DNA of 64,000 nucleotides from Chondrosia reniformis. Its lineage: Eukaryota > Porifera > Demospongiae > Chondrillida > Chondrillidae. The translations under genes were made by a program, and so were the position numbers. Positions 1,344-56,761 of the stretch are shown here, piece by piece. Positions within the stretch are counted from its first letter, which is position 1, and each line of letters opens with the position of its first letter. Location: positions 5,828,001 through 5,892,000 of the forward strand of contig OX359190.1 of the NCBI GenBank assembly GCA_947172415.1. The letters are read 5' to 3'. The notes below the pieces were generated by a model. It searched no databases, was not told where the DNA came from, and saw only the letters and a list, made by a program, of their open reading frames with translations.

Positions 1344-1385
1344 CTTTGTGGACTAGCTTGTCTAGCCCTTGACCCATTTCCAATC

Positions 1386-4489: not shown

Positions 4490-4554
4490 GCCCCTAGATT
4501 TAGCATAGTGAGCCAAGGATTCACAGAAGATCAAGATAAAGAAAAAGACAAAGA

Positions 4555-4613
4555 CTCCCAGGATCACTGATGAAGGGTGGAATTCCCAGAAACGGCTGTC
4601 TGACCCAGTGGAG
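4555..4613 (+). ncRNA. Type I hammerhead-like ribozyme motif in the Naiad 3' region
   Basis: The core CTGATGA (4567-4573) and GAAA (4589-4592) are both present. Stem I pairs GGATCA (4561-4566) with TGACCC (4601-4606), five of six pairs, and CTCC (4555-4558) with GGAG (4610-4613). Stem II has three G-C pairs (4575-4577 with 4585-4587), but the closing 10.1-11.1 pair is A-A instead of G-C. Stem III is A-C/G-U with a GGCT loop (4592-4599), and C4600 is the expected cleavage base. The architecture matches the minimal hammerheads of Penelope-like elements. The weak stem II closure may reduce or abolish cleavage. Confidence 0.65.
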
Positions 4614-4755
4614 AAGAAGATGAAAGAAGGGAAAAGAGGGAAGAAAAGACTACTGTATCTTCATTTAAAGCTCTCTTAAGGTTTAGTTCCCCTATAGGCT
4701 CTTTTTACAGAATAGGCATATAGCATGTAGGAAAATGGTATCTTAGATTTTTCAT

Positions 4756-9852: not shown

Positions 9853-11155
9853 TTCGGATGGACAAGGACTTATTGCATAGAGATGTTCTCTACGTGAGTT
9901 GAATTGGATATGCCCTAAGTTAGCCAGCAGTCCTGTAATAAACTTGACGCTTTACCTAAATCGTTTACAAGGACTTATTGTATAGAGTTTATAAGCGATG
10001 TTGTCTACGTGAGTTGAAGACGAACCCTGACACCTAGGTAGCATACTTTCTTGTCTTGAAAAAGTACTCGCCTTGCTGTAAGAAGGTAAAGAAAACCTTT
10101 CTTTCAAGTTAGGCTGTCATTTCAGAGCCCACTTTACCTTACTTTTGCCACATGTGTACTTAAGATTTTAAATTAATTAAATTCGGCCGGACAAGGACTA
10201 ATTGCATAGAGATATTCTCTACGTGAGTTGAATTGGATGTGCCCTAAGTTAGCCAGCAGTCCTGTAATAAACTTTACGCTTTACCTAAATCGTTTACACA
10301 GACTTATTGTATAGAGTTTATAAGCGATGTTGTCTACGTGAGTTGAAGACGAACCCTGACACCTAGGTAGCATACTTTCTTGTCTTGAAAAAGTACTCGC
10401 CTTGCTGTAAGAAGGTAAAGAAAACCTTTCTTTCAAGTTAGGCTGTCATTTCAGAGCCCACTTTACCTTACTTTTGCCACATGTGTACTTAAGATTTTAA
10501 ATTAATTAAATTCGGCCGGACAAGGACTAATTGCATAGAGATATTCTCTACGTGAGTTGAATTGGATGTGCCCTAAGTTAGCCAGCAGTCCTGTAATAAA
10601 CTTTACGCTTTACCTAAATCGTTTACACAGACTTATTGTATAGAGTTTATAAGCGATGTTGTCTACGTGAGTTGAAGACGAACCCTGACACCTAGGTAGC
10701 ATACTTTCTTGTCTTGAAAAAGTACTCGCCTTGCTGTAAGAAGGTAAAGAAAACCTTTCTTTCAAGTTAGGCTGTTATTTCAGAGCCCACTTTACCTTAC
10801 TTTTGCCACATGTGTACTTAAGATTTTAAATTAATTAAATTCGGCCGGACAAGGACTAATTGCATAGAGATGTTCTCTACGTGAGTTGAATTGGATGTGC
10901 CCTAAGTTAGCCAGCAGTCCTGTAATAAACTTTACGCTTTACCTAAATTGTTTACAAGGACTTATTGCAGAGTTTATAAGCGATGTTGTCTACGTGAATT
11001 GAAGACGAACCCTGACGCCTAGGTAGCATACTTTCTTGTCTTGAATAAGCACTCGCCTTGCTGTAAGAAGGTAAAGGAAACCTTTCTTTCAAGTTAGGCT
11101 GTCATTTCAGAGCCCACTTTACCTTACTTTTGCCACATGCGTACTTAGATTTTGA
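9853..11155. repeat. Minisatellite: four copies of a 329-bp unit
   Basis: Units start with TTCGGNNGGACAAGGACT at 9853, 10182, 10511 and 10840, exactly 329 bp apart; the last is slightly short. Units 2 and 3 are almost identical. Within a unit, ACAAGGACT...TAGAG followed by TCTACGTGAGTTGAA occurs twice about 105-115 bp apart, so the unit itself arose from a diverged duplication. No frame runs through it. Confidence 0.95.
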
Positions 11156-11926
11156 ATTCATTTCGAATGTGTAATCAATTATAATATGTAGTCACGTACC
11201 ATTTCCTTATCGTTAAACAAACATTGTTTATTTTAAACAGTGTCTATAGATTTGCTACACAAACATTCAATAGGTGAATTGAAGTGAAAATATGAATCGC
11301 ACATAGGAATCGGTTCAGGTGAGTAATCAAGTGTACAATTGTCTTCTGTACCTATCTATTGTGACCAACACTATCGAAAGTCCAGCTTGGATTTTAGTGT
11401 TGATTTCAGTGAATAGGTTTATTGGGCAACTAAAAGCATTGAGAGATTTCTAGGCTTTGCTATGTAATTTGTAGCTTCCAAAGTCTATATTCTTAGCATT
11501 ATAACAGGATGGATTGACTATATGTAATGTATTTTCATGGCAAGGTTTGTGCAGTGTAGATCTCATTGAATTGAGTTGATTTTACTTTGAACACTAAGCA
11601 ACAAGCAAAGAGGGATACCTAGACTTTTCTATAGTCCTTCATGCACCCTCATTACCAAAAATTAGTCAAAAATGTACTGATGGATGCCATGCATTTGAGC
11701 ATGACAATAAGATGGATTGCGCATGGGCTGGGGTGAATATTGAAATAGAACAACAAATTTGTAGGGACATCATCAAATTGCATATACATATAATAGAAGT
11801 ATTTTTGAAAATCTTTTATCTTTTGTTAAGTTGTGGCTTTGAAAAAAGCCGTTTCTGTTTCTTTAATATATTATTAATACTTGTACGAAATGTAAGTTAG
11901 TGTATTGCAATGGTCTAATAGTCTTT
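11156..11926. other. Unassigned AT-rich sequence
   Basis: No recognisable gene, repeat or terminal structure. A 62-codon open frame at 11712-11900 (+) has no recognisable features and is not called. Confidence 0.5.
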
Positions 11927-12364: not shown

Positions 12365-13432
12365 TTATTGTCCAGGCCCCAATCCCTCAACAGATAGATG
12401 TCGCCTCAATATCCTCACAGCCGAACAGAGAACAGTTCTCTGCATCGCTCTCATCACTTCTACTGCACTTTTTGACAGCTTTGGAATTCCCCTAAGGTCT
12501 TCCAGGAGCGTGTCCACTGTCCCCAAAGCACCAATTATCATCGGGACTACCTTAATTCGGTAGCCCCTAAATTGTTTCCTCATATCAGCTGCCAGCTTCT
12601 GGTACTTTTGGAACTTCTCTTGCCATCTTCCATTAATATTGCTGTCAGTAGGAACTGACATCTCAATAATGAAGATGGACTTACTTAGCCGATCCTCAAC
12701 CACTAAGTCTGGCCTTCTTTCTGTCATTTCATCATCTGTAGGGATACTAGGATCCCACAAGATTTTGACAGACCTATTCTCATAGACTGGTTTTGCTTCT
12801 AGTTTGTACCAGGGCTCTTCCTGCCTGAATCCATATTCTTTCAACAGTCTCCACAACACTATCAGTATTGCCCGGTCATGTCTCTCTTTGTAGAGAGAAA
12901 ATCCCTTGGGCTCACACATGTTTAGTATGTGTTTAACCGTTTCCATAGCCTTGCCACATTCTCTGCACATTAGGAGGCTAGAATTCTTCAGAATCCTATT
13001 TTGGTACCACCTAGTGTGCAGCACATCATCTTGGGCTGCGAGACTCAGAGCCTCAGTTTGAGGTCTGAGTCTCCCCTCAGAAAGCCACACATAAGACTCC
13101 CTATTTGTGACTTGTCTGTGGTATGAGCCCTGGTGAGACTTTTCGGCTAGGTTACTTTTTAACCTTTCAGTCTGAGCCTCCCGGAGCTCACGTGCCACTC
13201 TCCTCCATTCTCTTACACTATTTTGTGAGGGATCTGTCTTCAGCCACATTTCCGGTTCTAGTTCTATTCCGTGGCTTCTCAGTATCAATCTGGCTTCTTT
13301 CAAGACAGTCCTCCTGTGTGATGGCCTATGTACATAGTGGAGGTATTGATAGTAACTTGCACTGTACCATGTGCACTTTTTACACATATAGCAAACTGTA
13401 TATTTCATGCACTTACTATTCTTGCCATCCAT
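12365..13432 (-). pseudogene. R2-type non-LTR retrotransposon, C-terminal fragment with restriction-like endonuclease
   Basis: A 355-aa frame matching the end of an R2/NeSL-type polyprotein. In order it has a region after the reverse transcriptase with WLSEGRLRPQTEALSLAAQD; a CCHC zinc knuckle CRECGKAMETVKHILNMC (CX2C-X8-H-X4-C); then the PD-(D/E)XK-like nuclease with RRPDLVV, IIEMSVP and the downstream KFQKYQKLA and VPMIIGALG blocks. The reverse transcriptase itself is missing. That fits the 5' truncation usual for target-primed insertion. The start shown is the first ATG; the frame is open slightly further upstream to where homology should have continued. In an intact element this domain nicks the target DNA. 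It lies inside the Helitron-like composite, so it is probably a nested insertion. Confidence 0.85.
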
Positions 13433-13523
13433 TCGCCTGTAAAAAAAGGAGCACCAAAGCCCCTATTATCACCGTGTAAAGAGCCTATGTGCAGTGTGGA
13501 TGTATACCAAATAGATGGTAGAT

Positions 13524-21181: not shown

Positions 21182-22037
21182 CAGTGAAACCTCCGAATAA
21201 CGGACACGCTCGGACCCACCATTTTATCCTTTATTCAGCGGTTGTCCTCTTCTCGGAGGTCGGCCCATAACCACCCTCTAAACAACTAATTGTGTAATAG
21301 CAACTAGCTACCAGTTATATATGTCATGCGCAAAGTACGGATTCGGACAATCCACGGATTGGCCTGCGCAAAGCGTTAATCCACACTATATTACGGCTCA
21401 TGATCAAGATCCAAGAGATGCAATAAATACACACCAACAAGTTATAGGAAGCTACAAACACTAACATTTTACTAACATAACGGTTTACTAACTTAAAGGT
21501 TATGCTGGGCACGATCCTCAGAAGCAGGACTTCCTATTAGATGGTTTGGTACGAGTGGTTTTAGGACAGTTAAAATGAACAACTACCAAATGTATAAATC
21601 ATTCGCTTAGACCAATCAGGTTTAAGGCCACTTTTATCGACCTTTGAATAGTTGAAAAGTAGGAGCGCAATGAGCTAGCGGGCGGAACCGAAATTCCCTT
21701 GAGACTACTGTACGTACGATCCGCTGGACATCTGCAGCTATTTTATGTAGCTAGATACTTATGATTTACGTTAATTTTGTTCACTGTACTATTATCGTTT
21801 TATCGTAATAGTTTCGTCCCGTCTTTAGTTTAACTGTCTGCTTTCGGTGGTTAGTATGTATTGTCAGAGATCAGTCTGAGGCTTGGTTAGTGTCGGTTTT
21901 CCGGAGTTCGGAGGTGCCGTTTCTCGGAGGTTCGAAATGTACTAGTTCTATGGGAAAGTCAATCGGGGGGGGTAAGATTTGTGCGCTGTACAAAGGTTGT
22001 CCGCTTTTTGGAGAGTCCGCTAATGGAGGTTTTACTG
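21182..22037 (+). mobile_element. Pogo-like MITE, copy 2 (856 bp)
   Basis: Same termini as copy 1 (CAGTGAAACCTCCGAATAAC and GGAGGTTTTACTG), with TA on both sides. It differs from copy 1 mainly by about 25 bp of extra sequence near 21750. It is inserted at the same position of the satellite monomer as copy 1. Confidence 0.85.
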
Positions 22038-24722: not shown

Positions 24723-26324
24723 TTCTTGACTCTACATATATATGCAATATATATGATATATAATATGCATATAAGATATATACAATATATATTACATATA
24801 AGAAATATTATACATATATATTATGCATGCTTTTTTTCTTTTTTCAGGACCCAACCTGGTATTGAACCAGGACATCCTCGTACCTTGTATCCAGACGATG
24901 TTATCCGTAACACCATCGGTTACGTGGGTTCCACAATATATGTTGCAAATGAATTCCTATTTATATACCACTCACTTTTGACTCTACATATATATGCAAT
25001 ATATAAGATATACAATATGCATATAAGATATATACAATATATATTACATATAAGGTATAAAATTCTTATATATTATGTATGCTTTTTTTCTTTTTTCAGG
25101 AACCAACCTGGTTTTGAACCAGGACATCCTCGTACCTTGTATCCAGACGATGTTATCCGTAACACAATCGGTCACGTGGGTTCCAAAATATATGTTGAAA
25201 GTGAGGTCCTATTTATATACCACACACTTTTGACTTTACATATATATGCAATATATATATATATAATATGGATATTAGATATATACTATATATATTACAT
25301 ATAAGATATATAAAACATATATATTATGCATGCTTTTTTTTCTTTTTTAAGGCCACAACTTTGTATTGAACCAGGACATCCTCGTACCTTCTATCCAGAC
25401 AATGTCATCCGTAACACCATTGGTCACGTGGGTCACCCAATATATGTTGTAAATGAAATCCTATTTATATGCCACTCACTTTTGACTCTACAGATATATG
25501 CAATATATAAGATATATAATATGCATATAATATATATACAATATATATTACATATAAGATATATAATACATATATTAGTTGTTGGTTTTCTTTTTTCAGG
25601 ACCTACCTGGTTTTGAACTAGGGCATCCTCCTACCTTGTATCCAGACGATGTCATCCGAAACACCATCGGTTACGTGGGTCACCCAATAAATGTTGTAAA
25701 TGAAGTCCTTTTTATATACCATTCACTTTAGACTCTACATATATATGCAATAAATATATATATATATATATATAATATGCATATAAGATATATACAATAT
25801 ATATTACATATAAGATATAAAATACATATATAAGATGTGTGCTTTTTTCCTTTTTTTCTTTTTTCAGGACCCAACCTAGTATTGAACCAGGGCATCCTCG
25901 TACGACGATGTTATCCGTAACATCATCGGTCATGAGGGTTCCACAAGATATCTTCTAAAAGAAGTCCTATTTATATACCACACACTTTTGACTCTACATA
26001 TATATGCAATATATATATATATAATATGCATATAACATATATACAATATATATTACATATAAGATATTTAATACATATATATTATGCATGCTTTATTTTC
26101 TTTTTTCAGGACCCAACCTGGTATTGAACCAGGTCATCCTTGTACCTTGTATCCAGACGATGTTATCCGTAACACGATTGGTCACGTGGGTTCCACAATA
26201 TATGTTGTAAATGAAGTCCTATTTATATACTACTCACTTTTGACTCTATATATATGCCATATATATGTATATAGTATGCATATAAGATATATACAATATA
26301 TATTACATATAAGATATATAATAT
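24723..26324. repeat. Satellite block 7
   Basis: About 6.5 monomers, mostly form B. The last half-monomer (CCATATATATGTATATAGTATGC) resembles the one ending at 46260, so Helitron copies 1 and 2 share the same left junction. Confidence 0.95.
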
Positions 26325-26494
26325 AAGGTACGTACACACATGTCTATTACTTGCATACGTACATAATACATATTCTATATACTACAGTATATTTACTGAA
26401 AAGGGGAGTTTATTGTACTTAAGCCTCTGCTAGGCAATCATTGCAAACAATAAACATCACTGGTTGCCACAAATAGGACTTCGGTCCCCCAGCC

Positions 26495-28592
26495 AAGTAG
26501 ACGATTGTCACTTGGTTGGTTGGTACCAACTGTCCCCTGTAAATGGACATTATATATTCAGGTGCAATCAAGGAGGCTTGCATCCATTTGTGGAAAGACT
26601 TCTTCAGTATGATTGAATTGGAAGATAACATACGACAGCACAATGATCAGTCTTTCTCATCACTGCTGAATAGAATTCGAATAGGAGACCACACTCAGGA
26701 AGACATTGCCATCTTAGCAACTCGCAAGACATCCAACAATCAAGTGGATCTTTCGTAATCACCATTTTGCAATGCACTTAGACTGTTCCCTCGGGTTTCT
26801 GACTGTGACCTCTATAATGACCAGGAGCTGCACAAATTGACTTCTGCAACAGTGCAGTTGTTTGAAGCATCACATGTGATTTTGGAGAGTCGCAGATGCA
26901 CACATGGGGCAGTATCCTATGAGCATATATGAGAAGAACTCATTCCCAATGATGACAAAGAGTGTGGTGGCTTACCAAGGCGTTTGAAACTGGCTGTTGG
27001 GTCGGAAATTATGTTGAGAAGAAACATAAAATGCGGAGATGGACTTGTGAATGGTGCTCGAGGTATCACAGTAGGATTTAAATGGCCAGGAAATGTAAAA
27101 AATCAACCAAGCCCAGGTGCACTACCTGAGTATGTTCTTATCAAATTTCATGATCCTCGAGTTGGACAACTAAACAAAGTTCCAATTGAAAATGGACACC
27201 AGGAAGTGGTGCCAATTGAACCAATGTCAGTCAGGTTCTATGGACGACAGGGTACTGTGCTTCAGAGAACACAGTTACCTCTCATTCTTTGTTGGGCTGC
27301 TACTCTACACAAGGTTCAAGGTCTGTCATTAGATGCAGCTGTGCTGGACCTGGGAGAAAAAGTGTTCGAACCAGGGATGGCATATGTGGCCTTGAGTCGT
27401 GTTAGGACTCTAGATGGCGTGGCTCTATCAAGCTTTGAACCACAGAAGGTCAAGGCTAACAAACGAGTGCATGCAGAAATGGCCAGGTTACGGAAGAGAA
27501 GTGGTTCACATGATACATCAGACAATGAGTCACAAACATCCCACCTCTTGGTGCACAGTAGTTCCTCTCTATCCAACAAACCCAATCAACCAATGACCGG
27601 TTCCATTCCTGTCGTTGCTACTCCAGTACCCTCAGTGCAGAGGAATTCTTCTCCACCCATCCAAACCAACTCGCCAACCAAATCTGCTCCAGGTACACAC
27701 ATGCCCTCGGTGCAGAGTAATTCTTCTTTAATAATCCAACCCCAGACCCCAATCATTTCTGTTCCCCATGTTGCTTCACCAGTACTGTCACTTCAAGAAG
27801 AGTTAGAAACTATGGTGAACTGTGAAAATCCGGCTACTGATTTGATCAGCAATTGGGCAAAGTGTCATGAGGGTGATATTAGCTACTTTGATAGAAGTAA
27901 ATCAGCCATCCCGTGCAATTCTCAGCAGCTTCCACAGTACAGATGTTGGCGTGAGGGAAAAACTTTTACCTGCCTTTACATGGTTTTATGTTCCAGTAGT
28001 ACACTACAGGAAGTGCAAACTGCATGTACAACATGATTTCATTAACCCTTACAGGAACAGAGCAGTACATGTCTCACTTGAGGTTGCTGACTGCCTATAG
28101 CCTCATTACACATCGAGAACATATGTTTGAGGTCATTCAACCAACTGCAAAAATTCTTCTACCCTTAAATGGACGAAGTGCAGCTTCAGTTTTTAAGGAA
28201 GCAGAAATTCAGTGGTTGGACCTCGTTCGCAGTTCACTACAAGATGGATCCTGGGGGAATCAATTTCATTTACACGCCCTCTCTATTGCTTTGGAGAGGT
28301 CAATTTGCCTGTATGGAGTTATGCGTAACAGAACGGTTCAACATCAAGGCAGGCAGTTGCAACGCATTGATGTGACTACTTCAGCAACTGAATTACAGAA
28401 CCTCTTGATGCTAAAGACATGCGACTGAACAACAGCATTATTTACCATCCAAATGTGGAAAAAGATTCCCCACTTTTAGGATTCTTTGATGCAAGCCATT
28501 TCACTGCTATTTTACCAGCAAATGCATCGTGTAACTCCACAGAATTTTCTCCATTCACCACCTTTGCCTCCCTCTGGACTCCTGAGGAATGA
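26495..28592 (+). pseudogene. Helitron PIF1-like helicase (motif III onward) with OTU-like domain, copy 1
   Basis: Recognisable parts in order: a motif III-like GWYQLSPVNGHYIF frame; LWKDFFSMIELEDNIRQ and IRIGDHTQEDIAIL; GSEIMLRRNIKCGDG; and the motif VI region LPLILCWAATLHKVQG to YVALSRVRTL, with the arginine kept. A Ser/Pro/Thr linker follows (about 27550-27790), then an OTU-like cysteine protease: the catalytic Cys context is mutated to GSANC here, and the His context SHFTAIL lies near 28497-28517. Lesions: a frameshift near 26580, stops at 26756-26758 (TAA) and 26930-26932 (TGA), loss of two bases near 27880, and one base lost near 28405. OTU-like domains occur in animal Helentrons; the role is uncertain. 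Confidence 0.82.
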
Positions 28593-29530
28593 TATCCAGA
28601 GTGTGTGTTTCAATAACTATCTAACTATTTATGACAATCTTTGGAAGTGACATATGTTAATGGTACATGCAAATATGGCTAGCTGCCAAAGCGTGATGTA
28701 TATGGCAGAGGGCGGAATACCTTTTATCATGACATTGATATTGGCAAAAGAGAGAGACCCAGATTGTGTTAGACCAGCATTTTGAGCAGTCATATGTTTA
28801 AGAATCTCACTTAACTTTAATTGACATTTAACAAAATAAACTTTTTGTTTAGTTTCTATTACAAGTAGCATAATGATGATCCAGTGATGACTATATATAC
28901 ATACATTAGTATTACAAGGTCAAAAGAACAAGTAATTTACAAAATTGTATGCAACAAATCTCCCTATTATAATATAATGAATAATTGAAACTATTTGTTT
29001 TGGATTACGTACACAAATATGAATTTAACATTTTACCGTTTTAATAATTAATAGACGATTGTACAACAAAAAAGAAGAGATATTTCGGTATGAATTTAAA
29101 TTTTACATAATAGATAGGTATACACATAGTTAATGCGTTGGTATAATTATTTATTTAATCGCTATATGTATAATTGTATAATTATATGTGTTATTGTATA
29201 TTATATGTGTGTTTATATATATTTGTGTTTATATAGTATATGTGTAATTATATTGTATATATTTGCACATGCATATGCATGTCTTTTACACACTTTCATG
29301 TGACTGATACATGCCTTTGTAAAGTATGTGTGTAGTAGCTGACACTCTCCTGCACAATTTAGCAGGATACTAGGTGTTAGAGCTACTACTTATAACAGAC
29401 TAAGTAAGATCTGTTCATGAATGTATTAGCGTTCTACAAACTTAGACATAATGTCTTCATGTTTGTGCAACTTTTGCACACTATATTAGTGAGTACTTTA
29501 TGCTCACTTTGTCCAACTAACTGTGTTTGG

Positions 29531-29737
29531 TTACAGTACATTGATTCTAATTTTACAGTTTCCTTTAATGCAGGCACTTCCAAGACATGCACTAAACATG
29601 TCACACTGGCTACCACAGCCATCTGTACATCCTCCATTACATCCAGGGCTGGTAACATCCTTACGGGCATCCACTTGGTCCTCGAAAGCAAACACTTCCC
29701 TGTGGGATGCATTCATGCCTACCTCTGCGTGGTGCAT
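29531..29737 (-). CDS. Possible Cys-rich exon fragment in the Helitron 3' region
   Basis: The frame includes GCNGGCTDGCGSQCDMFSAC and then CLGSACIKGNC, seven Cys at spacings 3,3,3,5,4,5. The regular spacing suggests a captured small Cys-rich domain. The equivalent frame is broken by stops in the copies at 14.4 kb and 49.6 kb. A plus-strand frame over the same DNA (29417 onward) is also open, so neither is secure. Confidence 0.2.
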   Translation of the reverse strand: MHHAEVGMNASHREVFAFEDQVDARKDVTSPGCNGGCTDGCGSQCDMFSACLGSACIKGNCKIRINVL

Positions 29738-29806
29738 CCTGGGATCACTCTAGCTATTAGGGTGCTGCTAAATGGCATGAGTAAAGGTGACATCTATGAA
29801 ATACGC

Positions 29807-29872
29807 CAAGTAGTTCGAGTTTGCATAGTGGCGCCAGGCGCCCCCACGAATTTTTCAAACTCGAACTACTTG
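29807..29872 (+). terminator. Terminal hairpin of Helitron copy 1
   Basis: Arms CAAGTAGTTCGAGTTTG and CAAACTCGAACTACTTG are perfectly complementary over 17 bp and enclose 32 bases with a GGCGCC-containing inner hairpin. Satellite TCTTTTTTCAGG follows directly. Confidence 0.75.
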
Positions 29873-32296
29873 TCTTTTTTCAGGACCCAACCTGGTATTG
29901 AACCAGGACATCCTCGTACCTTGTATCCAGACAATGTTATCCGTAATACCATCGGTCACGTGGGTTCCACAATAAATGTTGTAAATGATGTCCTATTTAT
30001 ATACCACTCACTTTTGACTCTACATATATATGCATATATATATATATAATATGCATATAAGATATATACAATATATATTACATATAAGATATATAATACA
30101 TATATAAGATGTGTGCTTTTTTCCTTTTTTCCTTTTTCAGGACCCAACCTGGTATTTAACCAGGGCATCCTCGTACGACGATGTTATCCGTAACATCATC
30201 GGTCATATGAGTTCCACAATATATCTTGTAAATGAAGTCCTATTGATATACCACACACTTTTGACTCTACATATATATGCAATATATATATATATATATA
30301 ATATGCATTTAAGATATATTCAATATATATTACATATAAGATATATAATACATATATAATATGCATACTTCATTTTCTTTTTTCAGGAACCTACCTGGAA
30401 ATGAACCAGGACATCCCAGTAACTTGTATCCAGACGATGTTATCCGTAACACCATCGGTCACGTGGGTCACCCAATATATGTGTTAATGAAGGCCTATTT
30501 ATATACCACTCACTTTCGACTCTACATATATATGCAATATATATATATATATAAAATGCATATAAGATATATACAATATATATTACATATAAGATATATA
30601 ATACATATATATTATGCATGCTTTTTTTTCTTTTTTCAGGACGAAACCTGGTATTGAACCAGGACATCCTTGTACCTTCTATCCAGACGATGTTATCCGT
30701 AACACCATCGTTCACGTGGGTTCCACAGTATATGTTATAAATGAAATCCTATTTATATACCACTCAATTTTGACTGTACATATATATGCAATATATAAGA
30801 TATATAATATGCATATAAGATATATAAAATATTCATTACATATAAGATATATAATACATATATAAGATGTTAGCTTTTTTCTTTTTTTCTTTTTTCAGCA
30901 CCCAACCTGGTATTGAACCAGGGCATCCTCGTACGACGATGTTATCCGTAACATCATCGGTCACGTGGGTTCCACAATATATCTTGTAAATGAAGTCCTA
31001 TTTATAAACCACTCACTTTTGACTCTACACATATACAATATACAAGATATATAATATGCATATAAGATATATACAATATATATTGCATATGAGATATATA
31101 ATACATATATGTTGTTTTCTTTTTTTCTTTTTTTTTTTCAGGACCCAACCTGGTTTTGAACTAGGGCATCCTCATACCTTGTTTCCAGACGATGTCATCC
31201 GTAACACCATCGGTCACGTGGCTTTCACCATATATGTTGTAAATGAAATCCTCTTTATATACCACTCACTTTTGACTCTACATATATATGCAATATATAA
31301 GATTTATAATATGCAAATAAGATATATACAATATATATTACATATAAGATATATAATACATATATAAGTTGTTTTCTTTTTTCAGGAACCAACCTAGTAT
31401 TGAATCAGGGCATCCTCGTACGACGATGTTATCCGTAACATCATCGGTCATGTGGGTTCAACAATATATCTTGTTAATGAAGTCCTATTTATATACCACT
31501 CACTTTTAACTCTACATATATATGCAATATATATATATAATATGCATATAAGATATGTACAATATATAATTTACATATAAGATATATAATAAATGTATAA
31601 GATATATGCTTTTTTTTTTTCTTTATTCAGGACCTAACCTTTTATTGAACCAGGGCATCCTCGTACCTTGTATCCAGACGATGTCATCCGTAACACCATC
31701 GGTCACCTGGGTCACCCAATATATGTTGTAAATGAAGTCCTATTTATATACCACACACTTTTGACTCTACATATATATGCAATATATATATATATATATA
31801 ATATGCATATAAGATATATACAATATATATTATATATAAGATATATACAATATATATTACATAAAAGATAAAGAATACATATATAAGTTGTTTGCTTTTT
31901 TTTCAGGACCCAACCTGGTATTGAACCAGGGCATCCTTGTACGACGATGTTATCCGTAACATCATCGGTCACGTTGGTTCCACAATGTATCTTGTAAATG
32001 AAGTCCAATTTATATACCACTCACTTTTGACCCTACTTATATATGCAATATATAAGATATATAATATGCATATAAGATATATTCAATATATATTACATAT
32101 AAGATATATAATACATATATAAGTTGTTGGCTTTTTTCTTTTTTCAGGACCCAACCTGGCATTGAACTAGGGCATCCTCGTTCCTTGTATCCAGACAATG
32201 TCATCCGCAACACCATTGGTCAGTTGTGTCACCCAATACATGTTGTAAATGAAGTCCTATTTATATACCACACACTTTTGACTCTACATATATATG

Positions 32297-32334
<38 letters not shown>

Positions 32335-34082
32335 AGCAAATAAGATATATACAATATATATTATATATAAGATATATAATACATATATATTATGCATACT
32401 TTTTTCAATTTTCAGGACCCTACCTGAAATTGAACCAGGACATCCTCGTACCTTGTTTCCAGACGATGTTATCAGTAATACCATCGGTCAAGTGGGTTCC
32501 ACAATATATGTGTTAATGAAGGCCTATTTATATACCACTCACTTTCGACTCTACATATATATGCAATATATATATATATATAAAATGCATATAAGATATA
32601 TACAATATATATTATATATAAGATATATAATACATATATATTATGCATGCTTTTTTTTCTTTTTTCAGGACGAAACCTGGTATTGAACCAGGACATCCTC
32701 GTACCTTCTATCCAGACTATGTTATCCGTAACACCATCGTTCACGTGGGTTCCACAATATATGTTTTAAATGAAATCCTATTTATATACCACTCAATTTT
32801 GACTGTACATATATATGCAATATATAAGATATATAATATGCATATAAGATATATAAAATATTCATTACATATAAGATATATAATACATATATAAGATGTT
32901 AGCTTTTTTCTTTTTTTCTTTTTTCAGCACCCAACCTGGTATTGAACCAAGGCATCCTCGTACGACGATGTTATCCGTAACATCATCGGTCACGTGGGTT
33001 CCACTATATATCTTGTAAATGAAGTCCTATTTATAAACCACTCACTTTTGACTCTACACATATACAATATACAAGATATATAATATGCATATAAGATATA
33101 TACAATATATATTACATATAAGATATATAATACATATATAAGTTGTTTTCTTTTTTCAGGAACCAACCTAGTATTGAATCAGGGCATCCTCGTACGACGA
33201 TGTTATCCGTAACATCATCGGTCATATGGGTTCAACAATATATCTTGTTAATGAAGTCCTATTTATATACCACTCACTTTTAACTCTACATATATATGCA
33301 ATATATATATATAAAATATGCATATAAGATATGTACAATATATAATTTACATATAAGATATATAATAAATGTATAAGATATATGCTTTTTTCTTTTTTCT
33401 TTATTCAGGACCTAACCTTTTATTGAACCAGGGCATCCTCGTACCCTGTATCCAGACGATGTCATCCGTAACACCATCGGTCACCTCGGTCACCCAATAT
33501 ATGTTGTAAATGAAGTCCTATTTATATACCACACACTTTTGACTCTACATATATATGCAATATATATATATATATAATATGCATATAAGATATATACAAT
33601 ATATATTATATATAAGATATATACAATATATATTACATATAAGATAAAGAATACATATATAAGTTGTTTGCTTTTTTTTCAGGACCCAACCTGGTATTGA
33701 ACCAGGGCATCCTTGTACGACGATGTTATCCGTAACATCATCGGTCACGTTGGTTCCACAATGTGTCTTGTAAATGAAGTCCAATTTATATACCACTCAC
33801 TTTTGACTCCACATATATATGCAATATATAAGATATATAATATGCATATAAGATATATTCCATATATATTACATATAAGATATATAATACATATATAAGT
33901 TGTTGGCTTTTTTCTTTTTTCAGGACCCAACCTGGTATTGAACTAGGGCATCCTCATACCTTGTATCCAGACAATGTCATCCGCAACACCATTGGTCACT
34001 TCGGTCACCCAATATATGTTGTAAATGAAGTCCTATTTATATACCACACACTTTTGACTCTACATATATATGCAATATATAT
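29873..34082. repeat. Satellite block 8, with a 2029-bp higher-order unit
   Basis: About 17 monomers. The stretch from about 30.44 kb repeats from about 32.47 kb at a spacing of about 2029 bp; monomers at 30614 and 32643 are near-identical, including the variant ATTTTGACTGTACAT. A third copy of this group lies at 37.35-39.7 kb. The monomers at 30.81 and 32.84 kb are empty-site relatives of the Naiad insertion. Confidence 0.93.
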
Positions 34083-34156
34083 ACAGTGCAAGTTACAATA
34101 TACTAAGGTAATCTAATATAAATATATAAATAAATAATTAATATATATAAATAATA

Positions 34157-44500: not shown

Positions 44501-46260
44501 ATGTATAAGATATATGCTTTTTTTCTTTTTTTCTTTATTCAGGGCCCAACCTTTTATTGAACCAGGACATCCTCGTACCTTGCATCCAGACGATGTCATC
44601 TCTAACACCATCGGTCACCTGGGTCCCCTATATATGTTTTCAATGAAGTCCTATTTATATACCACTCACTTTTGACTCTACATATATATGCAATATATTT
44701 ATGTATATATATAATATGCATATAAGATATATACAATATATATTACATATAAGATATATAATGCATATATAAGATGTGTGCTTTTTTCCTTTTTTTCTTT
44801 TTTCAAGACCCAGCCTGGTATTGAACCTAGGCATCCTCGTACGACGATGTTATCCGTAACATCATCGGTCATGTGTGTTCCACAATATATCTTGTAAATG
44901 AAGTCCTATTTATATACCACTCACTTTTGACTCTACATATATATGCAATATATAAGATTTATAATATGCATATAAGTTATATAGAATATATATTACAAAT
45001 AAGATATATAATACATATATAAGTTGTTTTCTTTTTTTCTTTTTTTCTCTTTTCAGGACCCAACCTGGTATTGAACTAGGGCATCCTCCTACCTTGTATC
45101 CAGACGATGTCATCCGTAACACCATCGGTCACGTGGTTCACCCAATTTATATACCACTCACCTTTGACTCTACATATATATGCAATATATATATATATAA
45201 TATGCATATAAGATATATACAGTATATATTACATATAACATATATATTACTTATATATTATGTATGCTTTTTTTTCTTTTTTCAGGACCCAATCTGGTAT
45301 TGAACCAGGACATCCTCGTACCTTGTATCCAGACAATGTTATCCGTAACACTATCGGTCACATGGGTTCCACAATATATGTTGTAAATGAAGTCCTATTT
45401 ATATACCACTCACTTTTGACTGTACATATATGTATATATAATATGCATATAAGATATATACAATATATTTACATATAAGATATATAATAAATGTTTAAGA
45501 TATATGCTTTTTTTCTTTTTTCTTTATTCAGGACCCAACCTTTTATTGAACCAGGGCATCCTCGTACCCTGTATCCAGACGATGTCATCTGTAACACCAT
45601 CGGTCACCTGGGTCCCCCAATATATGTTGTAAATGAAGTCCTATTTATATACCATTCACTTTTGACTCTACACATATATGCAATATATATATATATATAT
45701 AATATGCATATAACATATATACAATATATATTACATATAAGATATATAATACATATATATTATGCATGCTTTATTTTCTTTTTTCAGGACCCAACCTGGT
45801 TTTGAACCAGGACATCCTCGTACCTTGTATCCAGACGATGTTATCCGTAACACCATTGGTCACGTGGGTTCCACAATATATGTTGTAAATGAAGTCCTAT
45901 TCATATACCACTCACTTTTGACTCTACGTATATATGCAATAAATAAGATTTGTAATATGCATATAAGTTATATGCAATATATATTGCATATAAGATATAT
46001 AATACATATATGTTGTTTTCTTTTTTCTTTTTTCTTTTTTCAGGACCCAACCTGGTATTGAACTAGGGCATCCTCGTACCTTGTATACCGACGATGTCAT
46101 CCGTAACACCATCGGTCACGTGGGTCACCCAATAAATGTTGTAAATGAAGTCCTATTTATATACCACTCACTTTTGACTCTATATATATATGCAATATAT
46201 ATGTATATAGTATGCATATAAGATATATACAATATATATTACATATAAGATATATAATAT
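41560..46260. repeat. Satellite block 10
   Basis: About 19 monomers. One monomer (44343-44400) lacks most of the core, jumping from CAGGACC to ACAATATATGTTG. No gene. Confidence 0.95.
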
Positions 46261-46430
46261 AAGGTACGTACACACATATCTATTACTTGCATACGTACAT
46301 AATACATATTCTATATACTACAGTATATTTACTGAAATGGGGAGTTTATTATACTTAAGCCTCTGCTAGGCAATCATTGCAAACAATAAACATCACTGGT
46401 TGCCACAAATAGGACTTCGGTCCCCCAGCC

Positions 46431-48530
46431 AAGTAGACGATTGTCACTTGGTTGGTTGGTACCAACTGTCCCCTGTAAATGGACATTATATATTCAGGTG
46501 CAATCAAGGAGGCTTGCATCCCATTTGTGGAAAGACTTCTTCAGTATGATTGAATTGGAAGATAACATACGACAGCACAATGATCAGTCTTTCTCATCAC
46601 TGCTGAATAGAATTCGAATAGGAGACCACACTCAGGAAGACATTGCCATCTTAGCAACTCGCAAGACATCCAACAATCAAGTGGATCTTTCGTCATCACC
46701 ATTTTGCAATGCACTTAGACTGTTCCCTCGGGTTTCTGACTGTGACCTCTATAATGACCAGGAGCTGCACAAATTGACTTCTGCAACAGTGCAGTTGTTT
46801 GAAGCATCACATGTGATTTTGGAGAGTCGCAGATGCACACATGGGGCAGTATCCTATGAGCATATACGAGAAGAACTCATTCCCAATGATGACAAAGAGT
46901 GTGGTGGCTTACCAAGGCGTTTGAAACTGGCTGTTGGGTCGGAAATTATGTTGAGAAGAAACATAAAATGCGGAGATGGACTTGTGAATGGTGCTCGAGG
47001 TATCATAGTAGGATTTAAATGGCCAGGAAATGTAAAAAATCAACCAAGCCCAGGTGCACTACCTGAGTATGTTCTTATCAAATTTCATGATCCTCGAGTT
47101 GGACAACTAAACAAAGTTCCAATTGAAAATGGACACCAGGAAGTGGTGCCAATTGAACCAATGTCAGTCAGGTTCTATGGACGACAGGGTACTGTGCTTC
47201 AGAGAACACAGTTACCTCTCATTCTTTGTTGGGCTGCTACTCTACACAAGGTTCAAGGTCTGTCATTAGATGCAGCTGTGCTGGACCTGGGAGAAAAAGT
47301 GTTCGAACCAGGGATGGCATATGTGGCCTTGAGTGGTGTTAGGACTCTAGATGGCGTGGCTCTATCAAGCTTTGAACCACAGAAGGTCAAGGCTAACAAA
47401 CAAGTGCATGCAGAAATGGCCAGGTTACGGAAGAGAAGTGGTTCACATGATACATCAGACAATGAGTCACAAACATCCCACCTCTTGGTGCACAGTAGTT
47501 CCTCTCTATCCAACAAACCCAATCAACCAATGACCAGTTCCGTTCCTGTCGTTGCTACTCCAGTACCCTCAGTGCAGAGGAATTCTTCTCCACCCATCCA
47601 AACCAACTCGCCAACCAAATCTGCTCCAGGTACACACATGCCCTCGGTGCAGAATAATTCTTCTTTAATAATCCAACCCCAGACCCCAATCATTTCTGTT
47701 CCCCATGTTGCTTCACCAGTACTGTCACTTCAAGAAGAGTTAGAAACTATGGTGAACTGTGAAAATCCAGCTACTGATTTGATCAGCAATTGGGCAAAGT
47801 GTCATGAGGGTGATATTACAGCTACTTTGATAGAAGTAAATCAGCCATCCCGTGCAATTCTCAGCAGCTTCCACAGTACAGATGTTGGCGTGAGGGAAAA
47901 ACTTTTACCTGCCTTTACATTGTTTTATGTTCCAGTGTACACTACAGGAAGTGGAAACTGCATGTACAACATGATTTCATTAACCCTTACAGGAACAGAG
48001 CAGTACATGTCTCACTTGAGGTTGCTGACTGCCTACAGCCTCATTACACATCGAGAACGTATGTTTGAGGTCATTCAACCAACTGCAAGAATCTTCTACC
48101 CTTAAATGGACGAAGTGCAGTTTCAGTTTTTAAGGAAGCAGAAATTCAGTGGTTGGACCTCATTCGCAGTTCACTACAGGATGGATCCTGGGGGAATCAA
48201 TTTCATTTATACGCCCTCTCTATTGCTTTGAAGAGATCAATTTGCCTGTATGGAGTTATGCGTAACAGAACGGTTCAACATCAAGGCAGGCAGTTGCAAC
48301 GCATTGATGTGACTACTTCAGCAGCTGAATTACAGAACCTCTTTGATGCTAAAGACATGCGACTGAACAACAGCATTATTTACCATCCAAATGTGGAAAA
48401 AGATTCCCCACTTTTAGGATTCTTTGATGCAAGCCACTTCACTGCTATTTTACCAGCAAATGCATCATGTAACTCCACAGAATTTTCTCCATTCACCACC
48501 TTTGCCTCCCTCTGGACTCCTGAGGAATGA
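46431..48530 (+). pseudogene. Helitron PIF1-like helicase (motif III onward) with OTU-like domain, copy 2
   Basis: One open frame runs to 48105 and then shifts; the rest of the OTU-like part (to the TGA at 48528-48530) is in another frame because one base was lost near 48092. The frame of motif III (GWYQLSPV) is joined to LWKDFF by a further shift near 46517. The helicase blocks are as in copy 1, but motif VI reads YVALSGVRTL: the arginine expected to act as the arginine finger is Gly. The OTU-like nucleophile is intact here (GSGNC, near 47950), and SHFTAIL supplies the likely His. So this copy keeps the protease Cys and loses the helicase Arg; copy 1 is the reverse. Confidence 0.84.
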
Positions 48531-49810
48531 TATCTAGAGTGTGTGTTTCAATAACTATCTAACTATTTATGACAATCTTTGGAAGTGACATACGTTAATG
48601 GTACATGCAAATATGGCTAGCTGCCAAAGCGTGATGTATATGGCAGTGGGCGGAATACCTTTTATCATGACATTGATATTGGCAAAAGAGAGAGACCCAG
48701 ATTGTGTTAGACTAGCATTTTGAGCAGTCATATTTTTAAGAATCTCACTTAACTTTAATTGACATTTAACAAAATAAACTTTTTGTTTAGTTTCTAATAC
48801 AAGTAGCATAATGATGATCCAGTGATGACTATATATACATACATTAGTATTACAAGGTCAACAGAACAAGTAATTTACAAAATTGTATGTAACAAATCTC
48901 CCTATTATAATATAATGAATAATTGAAACTATTTGTTTTGGATTACGTACACAAATATGAATTTAACATTTTACAGTTTTAATAATTAATAGACGATTGT
49001 ACAACAAAAAAGAAGAGATATTTCGGTATGAATTTAAATTTTACATAATAGATAGGTATACACATAGTTAATGCGTTGGTATAATTATTTATTTAATCGC
49101 TATATGTATAATTGTATAATTATATATGTTATTGTATATTATATGTGTGTTTATATATATTTGTGTTTATATAGTATATGTGTAATTATATTGTATACAT
49201 TTGCACATTCATATGCATGTCTTTTACACATTTTCATGTGACTGATACATGCCTTTGTAAAGTATGTGTGTAGTAGCTGACACTCTCCTGCACAATTTAG
49301 CAGGATAATAGGTGTTAGAGCTAATACTTATAACAGACTAAGTAAGAACTGTTCATGAATGTATTAGCATTCTTCAAACATAGACATAATGTCTTCATGT
49401 TTGTGCAACTTTTGCACATTATATTAGTGAGTACTTTATGCTCACTTTGTCCAACTAACTGTGTTTGGTTACAGTGCATTGATTCTAATTTTACAGTTTC
49501 CTTTAATGCAGGCACTTCCAAGACATGCACTAAACATGTCACACTGGCTACCACAGCCATCTGTTCATCCTCCGTTACATCCAGGGCTGGTAACATGCTT
49601 ACGGGCATCCACTTGCCCCTCGAACGTAAACACCTCCCTGTGGGATGCATTCATGCCTACCTCCGCGTGGTGCATCCTGGGATCACTCTAGCTATTAGGG
49701 TGCTGCTAAATGGCATGAGTAAAGGTGACATCTATGAAATACGCCAAGTAGTTCGAGTTTGCATAGGGGCACAAGGCGCCCCCACGAGTTTTTTAAACTC
49801 GAACTACTTG
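48531..49810 (+). repeat. Helitron 3' non-coding region, copy 2
   Basis: Shared segment from 48732. The terminal hairpin has arms 49745-49761 and 49794-49810; the inner GC stem is damaged here (GGGGCACAAGGCGCCCC). Confidence 0.85.
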
Positions 49811-52800
49811 TCTTTTTTCAGGACCCAAACTGGTATTGAACCAGGACATCCTCGTACGACGATGTTATCCGTAACATCATCAGTCATGTGAGTTCCACAA
49901 TATATCTTGTAAATGAAGTCCTATTGATATACCATACACTTTTGACTCTACATATATATGCAATATATATATATATAATATGCATATAAGATATATACAA
50001 TATATATTACATATAAGATATATAATACATATATATTATGGATGCTTTATTTTCTTTTTTCAGGACCCAGCCTGGTATTGAACCAGGACATCCTCGTACC
50101 TTGTATCCAGACGATGTTATCCGTAACACCATTGGTCACGTGGGTTCCACAATATATGTTGTAAATGAAGTCCTATTTATATACCACTCACTTTTGACTC
50201 TACATATATATGCAATATATAAGATTTATAATATGCATATAAGATATATACAATATATATTACATATAAGATATATAATACATATATAAGTTGTTTTCTT
50301 GTTTCTTTTTTTCTTTTTTCAAGACACCACCTGGTATTGAATCAGGGCATCCTCGTACGACGATGTTATCCGTAACATCATTGGTAATGTGGGTTCAACA
50401 TTATATCTTGTAAATGAAGTCCTATTTATATACCACTCACTTTTAACTCTACATATATATGCAATATATATATATATAATATGCATATAAGATATATAAA
50501 ATATATATTACATATAAGATATCTAATAAATGTATAAGATATATGCTTTTTTTTTATTCAGGACCTAACCTTTTATTGAACCAGGGCATCCTCGTACCTT
50601 GTATCCAGACGATGTCATCCGTAACACCATCAGTCACCTGGGTCACCCAATAAATGTTGTAAATTAAGTCTTATTTATATACCACACACTTTTGACTCTA
50701 CATATATATGCAATATATATATATATATATAATATGCAAATAAGATATATACAAAAATATATTACATATAAGATATAGAATACATATATAAGTTGTTTGC
50801 TTTTTTTTTCAGGACCCAACCTGGTATTGAACTAGGGCATCCTCGTACCTTGTATCCAGACGATGTAATCCGTAACACCATCGGTCACGTGGGTCACCCA
50901 ATATATGTTGTAAATGAAGTCCTATTTATATACCACACACTTTTGACTCTACATATATATGCAATATATATATATATATAATATACATATAAGATATATA
51001 CAATATATATTATATATAAGATAAATAATACATATATATTATGCATGCTTTTTTTTCTATTTTCAGGACCCTACCTGGTATTGAATCAGGACATCCTCGT
51101 ACCTTGTTTCCAGACGATGTTATCCGTAATACCATCGGTCACGTGGGTTCCACAATATATGTTGTAAATGATGTCCTATTTATATACCACTCCCTTTTGA
51201 CTCTACATATATATGCAATATATATATATATATAAATAATATGCATATAAGATATATACAATATATATTACATATAAGATATATAATACATATATAAGAT
51301 GGGTGCTTTTTTCCTTTTTTTCTTTTTTCAGGACCCAACCTGGTATTTAACCAGGGCATCTTCGTACGACGATGTTATCCGTAACATAATCGGTCATTTG
51401 AGTTCCACAATATATCTTGTAAATGAAGTCCTATTGATATACCACACACTTTTGACTCTACATATATATGCAATATATATATATATATAAATAATATGCA
51501 TATAAGATATATACAATATATATTACATATAAGATATATAATACATATATAAGATGGGTGCTTTTTTCCTTTTTTTCTTTTTTCAGGACCCAACCTGGTA
51601 TTTAACCAGGGCATCTTCGTACGACGATGTTATCCGTAACATAATCGGTCATTTGAGTTCCACAATATATCTTGTAAATGAAGTCCTATTGATATACCAC
51701 ACACTTTTGACTCTACATATATATGCAATATATATATATATATAAATAATATGCATATAAGATATATACAATATATATTACATATAAGATATTTAATACA
51801 TATATATTATGCATGCTTTTTTTTCTATTTTCAGGACCCTACCTGGTATTGAATCAGGACATCCTCGTACCTTGTATCCAGACGATGTTATCCGTAATAC
51901 CATCGGTCACGTGGGTTCCACAATATATGTTGTAAATGATGTCCTATTTATATACCACTCACTTTTGACTCTACATATATATGCAATATATATATATATA
52001 ATATGCATATAAGATATATACAATATATATTACATATAAGATATATAATACATATATAAGTTGTTTGCTTTTTTTCTTTTTTCAAGACACAAACTGGTAT
52101 TTAACCAGGGCATCTTCGTACGACGATGTTATCCGTAACATAATCGGTCATTTGAGTTCCACAATATATCTTGTAAATGAAGTCCTATTGATATACCACA
52201 CACTTTTGACTCTACATATATATGCAATATATATATATATATAAATAATATGCATATAAGATATATACAATATATATTACATATAAGATATTTAATACAT
52301 ATATATTATGCATGCTTTTTTTTCTATTTTCAGGACCCTACCTGGTATTGAATCAGGACATCCTCGTACCTTGTATCCAGACGATGTTATCCGTAATACC
52401 ATCGGTCACGTGGGTTCCACAATATATGTTGTAAATGATGTCCTATTTATATACCACTCACTTTTGACTCTACATATATATGCAATATATATATATATAA
52501 TATGCATATAAGATATATGCAATATATATTACATATAAGATATATAATACATATATAAGTTGTTTGCTTTTTTTCTTTTTTCAAGACACAAACTGGTATT
52601 TAACCAGGGCATCTTCGTACGACGATGTTATCCGTAACATAATCAGTCATTTGAGTTCCACAATATATCTTGTAAATGAAGTCCTATTGATATACCACAC
52701 ACTTTTGACTCTACATATATATGCAATATATATATATATATAAATAATATGCATATAAGATATATACAATATATATTACATATAAGATATTTAATACATA

Positions 52801-54315
52801 TATATTATGCATACTTTATTTTCTTTTTTCAGGACCCAACCTGGTATTGAACCAGGACATCCTCGTACCTTGTATCCAGACGATGTTATCCATAACACCA
52901 TTGGTCACGTGGGTTCCACTATATATGTTGTAAATGAAGTCCTATTTATATACCACTCACTTTTGACTCTACATACATATGCAATATATAAGATTTATAA
53001 TATGCATATATGATATATACAATATATATTACATATAAGATATATAATACATATATAAGTTGTTTTCTTTTTTTTTTCAGAACCCAACCTGGTATTGAAT
53101 CAGGGCATCCTCGTACGACGATGTTATCCGTAACATCATCGGTAATGTAGGTTCAACAATATATCTTGTAAATGAAGTCCTATTTATATACCACTCACTT
53201 TTAACTCTACATATATATGCAATATATATATATATAATATGCATATAAGATATATACAATATATATATCATATAAAATATATAATAAATGTATGATATAT
53301 GCTTTTTTTCTTTTTTTCTTTATTCAGGACCTAACCTTTTATTGAACCAGGGCATCCTCGTACCTTGTATCCAGACGATGTCATCCGTAACACCATCGGT
53401 CACCTGGGTGACCCAATATATGTTATAAATGAAGTCTTATTTATATATGACACACTTCTGACTCTACATATATATGCAATATATATATATATATATATAA
53501 TATGCATATAAGATATATACCATATATATTATATATAAGATATATACAATATATATTACATATAAATATATAATACATATATAAGTTGTTGGCTTTTTTC
53601 TTTTTTCAGGACCCAACCTGGTATTGAACTAGGGCATCCTCGTACCTTGTATCCAGACAATGTCATCCGCAGCACCATTGGTCACTTCGGTCACCCAATA
53701 TATGTTGTAAATGAAGTCCTATTTATATACTACACACTTTTGACTCTACATGTATATGCAATATATATATATATATAATATGCATATAAGATATATACAA
53801 TATATATTATATATAAGATATATAATACATATATATTATGCATGCTTTTTTTCTATTTTCAGGACCCTACCTGGTATTGAACCAGGACATCCTCATACCT
53901 TGTTTCCAGACGATGTTATCCGGAATACCATCGGTCACGTGGGTTCAACAATATATGTTGTAAATGATGTCCTATTTATATACCACTCACTTTTGACTCT
54001 ACATATATATGCAATATATATACATATAATATGCATATAAGATATATACAATATATGTTACATATAAGATATATAATGCATATATAAGTTGTTTTCTTTT
54101 TTCTTTTTTCAGGACCTAACCTGGTATTGAACCAGGGCATCCTTGTACGACGATGTTATCCATAACACCATCGGTCACGTGGGTTCCACAATGTATCTTA
54201 TAAATGAAGTCCTATTTATATACCACTCACTTTTGACTCTATATATATATGCAATATGTAAGATATATAATATGTAAGATATATAATATGCATATAAGAT
54301 ATATAAATATATATA
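49811..54315. repeat. Satellite block 11, with recent 255-bp and 499-bp amplifications
   Basis: About 18 monomers. Units at 51299 and 51554 are virtually identical 255 bp apart; units at 51809 and 52308 are virtually identical 499 bp apart (a dimer unit). This is the youngest part of the array. Confidence 0.95.
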
Positions 54316-55238: not shown

Positions 55239-55944
55239 CGGCCCATAACCACCCTCTAAACAACTAATTGTGTAATAGCAACTAGCTACCAGTTATATAT
55301 GTCATGCGCAAAGTACGGATTCGGACAATCCACGGATTGGCCTGCGCAAAGCGTTAATCCACACTATATTACGGCTCATGATCAAGATCCAAGAGATGCA
55401 ATAAATACACACCAACAAGTTATAGGAAGCTACAAACACTAACATTTTACTAACATAACGTTTTACTAACTTAAAGGTTATGCTGGGCACGATCCTCAGA
55501 AGCAGGACTTCCTATTAGATGGTTAGGTACGAGTGGTTTTAGGACAGTTAAAATGAACGACTACCAAATGTATAAATCATTCGCTTTGACCAATCAAGTT
55601 TAAGGCCACTTTTATCGACCTTTGAATAGTTGAAAAGTAGGAGCGCAATGAGCTAGCGGGCAGAACCGAAATTCCCTTGAGACTACTGTACGTACGATCC
55701 GCTGGACATCTGTAGCTATTTTATGTAGCTAGATACTTATGACTTACGTTAATTTTGTTCACTGTACTATTATCGTTTAATCGTATTAGTTTCGTCTCTT
55801 CTTTAGTTTAACTGTCTGCTTTCGGTGGTTAGTATATACTGTCAGAGATCAGTCTGAGGCTTGGTTAGTGTCTGTTGTCCGTAAGATTTGTCCGCTGTAC
55901 AGAGGTTGTCCGCTTTTTGGAGAGTCCGCTAATAGAGGTTTTAC
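55239..55944 (+). mobile_element. Pogo-like MITE, copy 3b: lacks the left end
   Basis: Starts inside the element at CGGCCCATAACC (equivalent to 21262), about 80 bp short of the left end. Otherwise similar to copy 2. Confidence 0.85.
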
Positions 55945-56085: not shown

Positions 56086-56182
56086 TGAAGTCTGATCTTG
56101 GCTGGGGGACCGAATGCCTATTAAGTTGGCAACCAGTGATCGCCTCCCAGTCATCCAAAGGTGGAAAAAATTCATCAAAGAA

Positions 56183-56225
56183 CCACAGACAGCTGTTTTG
56201 CCCTCATTTGGGCTCATCAGTGTGG
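56183..56225 (-). ncRNA. Type I hammerhead ribozyme, copy 1, with G12 changed to A
   Basis: Minus strand: CCACA-CTGATGA-GCCC-AAATGA-GGGC-AAAA-CAGCTGTC-TGTGG. Stems I, II and III are all formed, but the conserved GAAA reads AAAA. G12 is the general base of the hammerhead, so this copy is expected to be inactive. Confidence 0.88.
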
Positions 56226-56540
56226 TACACTTCAATGATGATAAATTGGATGACTGCCCTCACTTATAAATCTACCACAAATGAAACACTTGTGGTGTCA
56301 TTTTAAGTGAGGATGGAGGCTACAGTCTAAGTGAGACTGAGCACTCACAATGACAAAGGGAGTTAATTGCACTAAGCCTGTGCAAAGGCTGAAATGATCA
56401 GAAATAATCACTGGAACGTATTACGCCATACCAGCCAAGTGACCGAAGTCTGATCTTGGCTGGGGGACCGAAGTCCTATTAAGTTGGCAACCAGTGATCG
56501 CCTCCCAGTCATCCAAAGATGGAAAAAATTCATCAAAGAA

Positions 56541-56583
56541 CCACAGACAGCTGTTTCGCCCTCATTTGGGCTCATCAGTGTGG
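56541..56583 (-). ncRNA. Type I hammerhead ribozyme, copy 2, complete core
   Basis: Minus strand: stem I CCACA/TGTGG (5 of 5 pairs), core CTGATGA, stem II GCCC/GGGC with loop AAATGA, GAAA, stem III A-C/G-U with loop AGCT, and GTC ending in the cleavage base C. Further out, CATCA and TGATG extend stem I beyond an internal loop, where type I hammerheads make the loop 1-loop 2 contact. Every invariant base is present. Confidence 0.93.
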
Positions 56584-56761
56584 TACACTTCAATGATGGT
56601 AAATTGGATGACTGCCCTCACTTATAAATCCACCACAAGTGAAACACTTGTGGTTTCATTTTAAGTGAGGATGGAAGCTACAGTCTAAGTGAGACTGAGC
56701 ACTCACAATGACAAAGGGAGTTAATTGCACTAAGCCTGTGCAAAGGCTGAAATGATCAGAA

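Follow-up and report, generated by a model that had tools for sequence, protein, structure and literature searches.

Two families of dispersed hammerhead repeats in the genome of the sponge Chondrosia reniformis, family A with a 358-nt unit and family B with a 354-nt unit, are, at most of the loci read, inserted in a layout that supports a tie to integration of the Penelope type: two arms stand head to head, and the arms end at two preferred sites, one short and one extended by a tail. The stretch of 64,000 nucleotides analysed here, called the window throughout, carries a family A copy on its minus strand and a Penelope-like element (PLE) on its plus strand (Table 1). In our view the units probably belong to an animal retrozyme that is non-autonomous and relies on Penelope-type machinery for its insertion, and PLE machinery is supported as the mobiliser because the inverted arms and the short and tail ends match the marks of PLE insertion. 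Family A is not itself a PLE, since its unit has no RT/GIY-YIG ORF, though it may use PLE machinery.

Table 1. Positions of the retrozyme and Penelope-like features in the window
Feature	Positions	Strand	Details
Retrozyme family A, unit 1	56404-56761	-	358 nt; bears the intact hammerhead; compared with the whole genome
Retrozyme family A, unit 2	56087-56403	-	unit positions 1-317; abuts satellite DNA
Type I hammerhead, intact core	56540-56584	-	Rfam RF00163, 34.6 bits
Second hammerhead, core G to A (CAAAAC)	56182-56226	-	RF00163, 28.1 bits
Unit 1, positions 1-53	56709-56761	-	has hairpin UUGCAC-AGGCUUA-GUGCAA
Unit 2, positions 1-53	56351-56403	-	second copy of this segment
Naiad-like PLE, GIY-YIG upstream of RT part	1344-4758	+	ORFs 1146-3374 and 3352-4305
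Hammerhead-like motif, Naiad-like PLE 3′ region	4561-4606	+	core CTGATGA...GAAAC GGCT GTC

Hammerhead units and the two families

The two units in the window are arranged head to tail with a period of 358 and are 97.2% identical over 317 nt. A first-pass annotation of the letters had described two minus-strand copies at this spacing with a hammerhead in each, and both ribozymes were indeed recovered with the Rfam model, one on either side of its gathering score of 34: the intact motif scores above it (E = 6.9e-5 for the whole window) and the other below. The annotation's account of one hammerhead with all core bases, a perfect stem I, a 4-bp stem II and a tiny stem III also holds for the intact motif, which has the core CUGAUGA...GAAA...GUC, pairs at 6/6 positions of stem I and 4/4 of stem II, and has a stem III of 2 bp. 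Its C17 maps to 56546 on the minus strand, the base beside which cleavage had been placed, and the predicted cut therefore lies between 56546 and 56545. In the second hammerhead an invariant core G is lost, since CAAAAC replaces the expected CGAAAC. The opposite strand gave no Rfam ribozyme match between 55500 and 57500 at E values up to 5, so that in this interval the ribozyme is found on one strand only. No ORF of at least 120 codons is present in 56087-56761, and the GC content of the unit is 0.444.

The pair is flanked by a 240-bp AT-rich satellite and by a 13-bp satellite. It is a broken copy, because it stops at unit position 317 and has neither of the two typed ends (short or tail) and no convincing target duplication, the best candidate being 9 bases with one mismatch.

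The rest of the genome holds many further copies, which the first-pass annotation had proposed to look for. Compared with the whole genome, the family A unit gave at least 124 alignments in 40 scored regions, with copies up to 99% alike. Its 33-nt hammerhead core was matched at 227 places at up to three mismatches, 88 of them exact, against none for the reversed-pattern control, and exact copies lie on all 14 large contigs (C1-C14); the viral_contigs collection gave no exact match of this core. For family B the corresponding core gave 291 matches at up to three mismatches (67 exact), although the A and B counts may overlap, because the two patterns differ at only four positions. In most loci the similarity between A and B is confined to the surroundings of the hammerhead.

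Pairing in the ribozyme was assessed on 11 hammerheads chosen from both the A and B sets and compared with 500 shuffles. Pairing holds for 98.5% of the cells in this set, and both sides have changed in 12 cells; 0/500 shuffles were as high in these two respects. The count of pairs with changes on both sides (3) and that of additional pair types (also 3) were not above the shuffles (305/500 and 500/500, respectively). Two subfamilies can be distinguished within family A, and their majority bases differ at 0/45 hammerhead positions versus 11.8% of the other 313; as a rough calculation rather than a formal test, raising 0.882 to the 45th power gives about 0.004. Within the main A subfamily the hammerhead is only slightly less variable than the remainder (1.0% vs 1.6%). 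Folded as a circle, the family A unit reaches -127.8 kcal/mol (z = -6.9) and the family B unit -121.4 kcal/mol (z = -5.9), each against 100 shuffles. Membership in the class of animal retrozymes, which had been suggested from the window alone, is thus supported for a dispersed non-coding family with a conserved hammerhead: the repeats are about 350 bp long and dispersed, contain a type I hammerhead of canonical form, lack ORFs of at least 120 codons, show target duplications at many insertions (see below), and fold as circles that are far more paired than their shuffles.

The 13-bp satellite (GTATGTACTAGTT; 154,672 pattern matches in the genome at up to three mismatches) occurs in the flanks of 13/35 A loci and 3/21 B loci, and the retrozyme copies within it may reflect an insertion preference, or simply survival there.

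Several other repeats were seen in the window. A decayed retrozyme relative, corresponding to unit positions 264-332 at 82.6%, lies on the plus strand at 26456-26520 and again at 46392-46456, adjoining ORFs for Pif1-like helicases, in a segment of about 9.5 kb that is present twice (24726-34085 and 44672-54024, 90%). A 42-nt stretch of family B (unit positions 44-85, 88-90%) is contained in another repeat, on the minus strand, at 8468-8509, 21661-21702 and 55639-55680, and an edge near the last of these, at about 55945, reads CAGTAAAACCTCTATTAGCGGAC. A 329-bp unit is repeated four times at 9853-11162, with matches of 97% and no Rfam match at gathering scores. A histone 3′ stem-loop (11809-11855, minus strand, 35.4 bits) is located downstream of the ORF 12365-13462 on the same strand, which matches zf-RVT weakly (E = 0.043) and falls short of the cut-off for that domain; this region is possibly the end of a LINE beside or carrying the stem-loop.

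Insertion layout and the source of the units

Insertions were read at 40 family A loci (the window and L009-L047), of which 35 were counted after removal of five segmental duplicates recognised by their flanks, mostly by eye, and at 21 loci from the hammerhead search, mostly of family B. Head-to-head inverted arms are present at 25/35 A loci and 14/21 B loci, the other 10 and 7 being in a single orientation; 13 of the A or B loci without a typing conflict have no second arm. Among inverted loci with both ends typed, 17/18 in family A combine one short end with one tail end, one has two short ends and none has two tails, while all 7/7 in family B are of the short-plus-tail type; these fractions exclude the 7/25 inverted A loci and 7/14 inverted B loci that were not fully typed. 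Typing relied on fixed words, and the mutated ends at L019, L033 and L042, which look short by eye, were counted as untyped.

In family A the short end stops at ...CCAGTGATTATTTCTGATCA, near unit position 9, and the arm on the opposite strand stops about 45 nt further, at ...AATTAACTCCCTTTGTCA, near position 53. The two ends of family B map to about unit positions 134 and 190, and its tail end carries a T-run of varying length (L054); over both families the distance from short to tail site is about 45-55 nt. The hairpin between the two ends exceeds its shuffles in stability only in B (z = -2.3), the z values for A and for a PLE of this genome being -0.5 and 0.2, respectively. A pseudoknot in the short-to-tail segment was considered and dropped, the RF01081 match being weak (19.6 bits, where the cut-off is 38; E = 2.2).

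Exact target duplications of at least 10 bases were found at 22/35 A loci versus 19/1190 mismatched flank pairs, and at 6/21 B loci versus 4/420. A narrower flank range, which had given duplications of at least 9 bases at 8/35 A and 7/21 B loci, was replaced by the wider one used here. The insertions vary greatly in length. One arm at L011 is a tandem of about five units, and the smallest insertion (L079, family B) consists only of unit positions 131-189, the 59 nt from short to tail site, bordered on both sides, by eye, by AAATATTAGG. L079 is one of four tail sites (L078-L081, three of B and one of A) that have no listed hammerhead nearby; three of them are short family B insertions, and L081 is a retrozyme with inverted arms. 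At L012 (1501-3429) two tandem retrozyme units are followed by 1.2 kb of other DNA and then by unit positions 1-54, a layout resembling the spacer before the last pLTR described for Pen1_Av (PMC3846280).

Seven A loci with at least two full units were used to compare the units within one insertion. Forty columns vary inside a locus; only 3 of them are shared, in that both alleles occur in at least two other loci, and 37 are private. Random groups assembled from different loci have a mean of 28.4 shared columns, with 0/1000 at or below 3, and when shared columns are expressed as a fraction, 3/1000 random groups are as low as observed. Between opposite arms (8 pairs from 4 loci) there are 2 shared and 33 private differences. 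Divergence within arms ranges from 0.3 to 2.5% (mean 1.4%) and averages 2.5% between loci, 18% of the between-locus pairs being as close as the within-arm mean. Because the differences are mostly private, the units on both arms of one insertion trace to a single sequence, which is what repeated reading of one RNA circle, or of identical RNAs with a common source, would produce. Duplication after insertion would explain the likeness of neighbours within one arm, but not that of the opposite arm.

Penelope-like elements in the same genome

Judging by its domain order, the PLE in the window is Naiad-like. Naiad PLEs have an N-terminal GIY-YIG domain and favour microsatellites, and they are not known to carry canonical hammerheads. 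The first part of its upstream ORF reads through satellite, and its RT part is related to the canonical PLE RT (E = 1e-9). The hammerhead-like motif in its 3′ region pairs at 5/6 positions of stem I and 3/4 of stem II and has no Rfam match at E values up to 5. At least 40 matches to this 3′ region at 98-100% were obtained (40 scored of 439 candidates), and many solo 3′ copies with the motif are present. A single 3′ end, ...GATTTTTCAT, was seen in all 15 copies read (the window copy and 14 more), in a set chosen because its members match as far as position 4690, in which an earlier short end would be missed. An 11-nt word is common to the Naiad-like PLE and family B, but with one 3′ end in this selection-biased set the element was not adopted as the partner of the retrozymes. 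At L041 and L042, near position 1500, retrozyme A insertions interrupt solo 3′ copies of the Naiad-like PLE at nearly the same point, and the DNA further out differs between the two loci. At L081, a 527-nt DNA match to the Naiad-like PLE (74.8%) lies about 1 kb away from the tail site.

A canonical PLE, with RT followed by GIY-YIG, is also present, and the main stretches of the three copies read agree at 98-99%. In the two copies for which both ends were read (L062 and L063), one end is at ...CATCCCAAAGAT and the other about 36 nt later; the tail pattern has 241 matches in the genome at up to three mismatches. Since retrozymes A and B and the canonical PLE all show a short and a tail end, they share one insertion layout. 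The L062 copy seems to sit inside a retrozyme, its flanks being retrozyme A tail with, by eye, AAAAGGGAGTT common to both sides.

Proposed mechanism, alternatives and known systems

Under the mechanism that we propose, transcripts of tandem copies would be cut by the hammerhead into RNAs of about 358 nt, which are presumably, and in our estimate more likely than not, ligated into circles. A Penelope-like RT/GIY-YIG protein, to which the insertion marks point, would insert these RNAs: both strands of a staggered target break would prime cDNA synthesis on the same RNA or on identical ones, one strand from the short site (about position 9) and its partner from the tail site (about position 53), the RT would travel around the RNA one or more times, and the two cDNAs would be joined head to head. 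We consider the chances even that both break ends are copied from one and the same small RNA circle, with short-site and tail-site priming and head-to-head rolling-circle cDNA. If they are, retrozymes would be parasites of PLEs that have kept only a ribozyme and two RT start sites.

The step through circular RNA has the most serious competitor, namely that tandem units arise from linear multimeric transcripts or from duplication at the DNA level. PLEs form tandems without known circles (PMC11167929, PMC3846280), hammerhead mutants of the purified anole PLE (PAc) still insert, so that insertion in vitro does not need hammerhead cleavage (PMC11167929), and copies within an arm do differ by the amounts given above. 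The locus-specific sequence is nevertheless common to opposite arms, and not just to tandem neighbours; intact hammerheads would be expected to remove linear multimers, and not a single hammerhead position differs between the subfamilies. We regard such an origin without circles as somewhat unlikely. A little further down the scale, and itself compatible with insertion by Penelope-type machinery, is the possibility that the units derive from a PLE as solo pLTRs, inserted with its hammerhead and without its ORF. It would account for insertion marks that are the same as those of PLE pLTRs, and the Naiad-like PLE with its many solo 3′ copies offers a parallel; BLAST of units A and B against this PLE, however, gave nothing better than E = 0.5, and no PLE protein match and no PLE with the same tail sequence were found at the four tail sites L078-L081, although few PLE loci were read and a matching pLTR may exist. 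Repeated units of 358 and 354 nt with intact hammerheads, moreover, look self-sustaining, and we judge a solo pLTR origin unlikely.

Twin priming yields inverted arms and target duplications, and a LINE-type element could therefore have mobilised the family by target-primed reverse transcription. The fixed 3′ ends at two internal sites, one on each strand and without poly(A), match PLEs, notwithstanding the T-run in the family B tail, and make LINE-type mobilisation improbable, even though a 2024 review names LINEs or PLEs as candidate movers (PMC11722881). A small self-paired RNA with a ribozyme also recalls an infectious viroid-like RNA copied into DNA; the finding of the ribozyme on one strand only at E values up to 5, the exact core copies on every large contig and the failure of the family A core to match viral_contigs exactly render this origin highly improbable. 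A chance hammerhead in ordinary satellite DNA, which the satellites on either side of the window pair might bring to mind, is refuted by the numbers of core matches for both families against none for the reversed pattern, by the paired stems and by the target duplications. The preferred reading remains a retrozyme moved by Penelope-type machinery.

The signature of two ends in head-to-head arms provides a concrete and testable link from animal retrozymes to PLEs, and it names the RNA positions at which reverse transcription should start. In the papers cited here, Penelope-type integration of retrozymes is only proposed: PLEs were called a strong candidate for moving animal retrozymes in 2020 (PMC7229834), and the review cited above leaves the choice between LINEs and PLEs (PMC11722881). 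Our findings also extend animal retrozymes to a sponge. The words “sponge” and “Porifera” are absent from the main text of PMC7229834, and among the matches listed from the open-licence literature no paper linked sponges to hammerheads or to retrozymes, and no paper dealt with retrozymes in inverted arrangement. With retrozymes up to 99% alike and two PLE types, their copies 98-99% alike, in one small genome, this species offers a workable system.

Animal (non-LTR) retrozymes are described as tandem repeats of 150-450 bp with canonical type I hammerheads (PMC7229834). Family A resembles them, as characterised there, in a GC content below 50%, the lack of LTRs, TSDs longer than 4 bp, a self-paired circle and the co-residence of PLEs in the genome, and differs from that description in its head-to-head arms with two preferred 3′ ends. 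Plant LTR retrozymes are likewise non-autonomous and carry hammerheads, and form circular RNA, which is here predicted (PMC4918200, PMC7229834, PMC7761336), but they are described as having type III hammerheads, LTRs, PBS/PPT and 4-bp TSDs (PMC7229834, PMC7761336). Compared with PLEs, family A has no ORF and a unit of only about 350 nt, and its hammerhead is canonical, while those of PLEs are said to be minimal variants (PMC7229834). It nonetheless shares with PLEs, as reported in PMC11167929 and PMC3846280, the inverted arms, the tail on one of them, the tandems and the hammerhead, the optional tail of PLEs being 30-40 nt long and their TSDs about 8-10 bp. In Penelope of Adineta vaga the pLTRs are inverted, one of them optionally bears a 31-bp tail, and the TSDs are 8, 9 or 10 bp (PMC3846280). 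The anole PAc enzyme, finally, cleaves both strands of the DNA and extends each of them, and its reverse transcription begins at two neighbouring internal sites that delimit the tail (PMC11167929).
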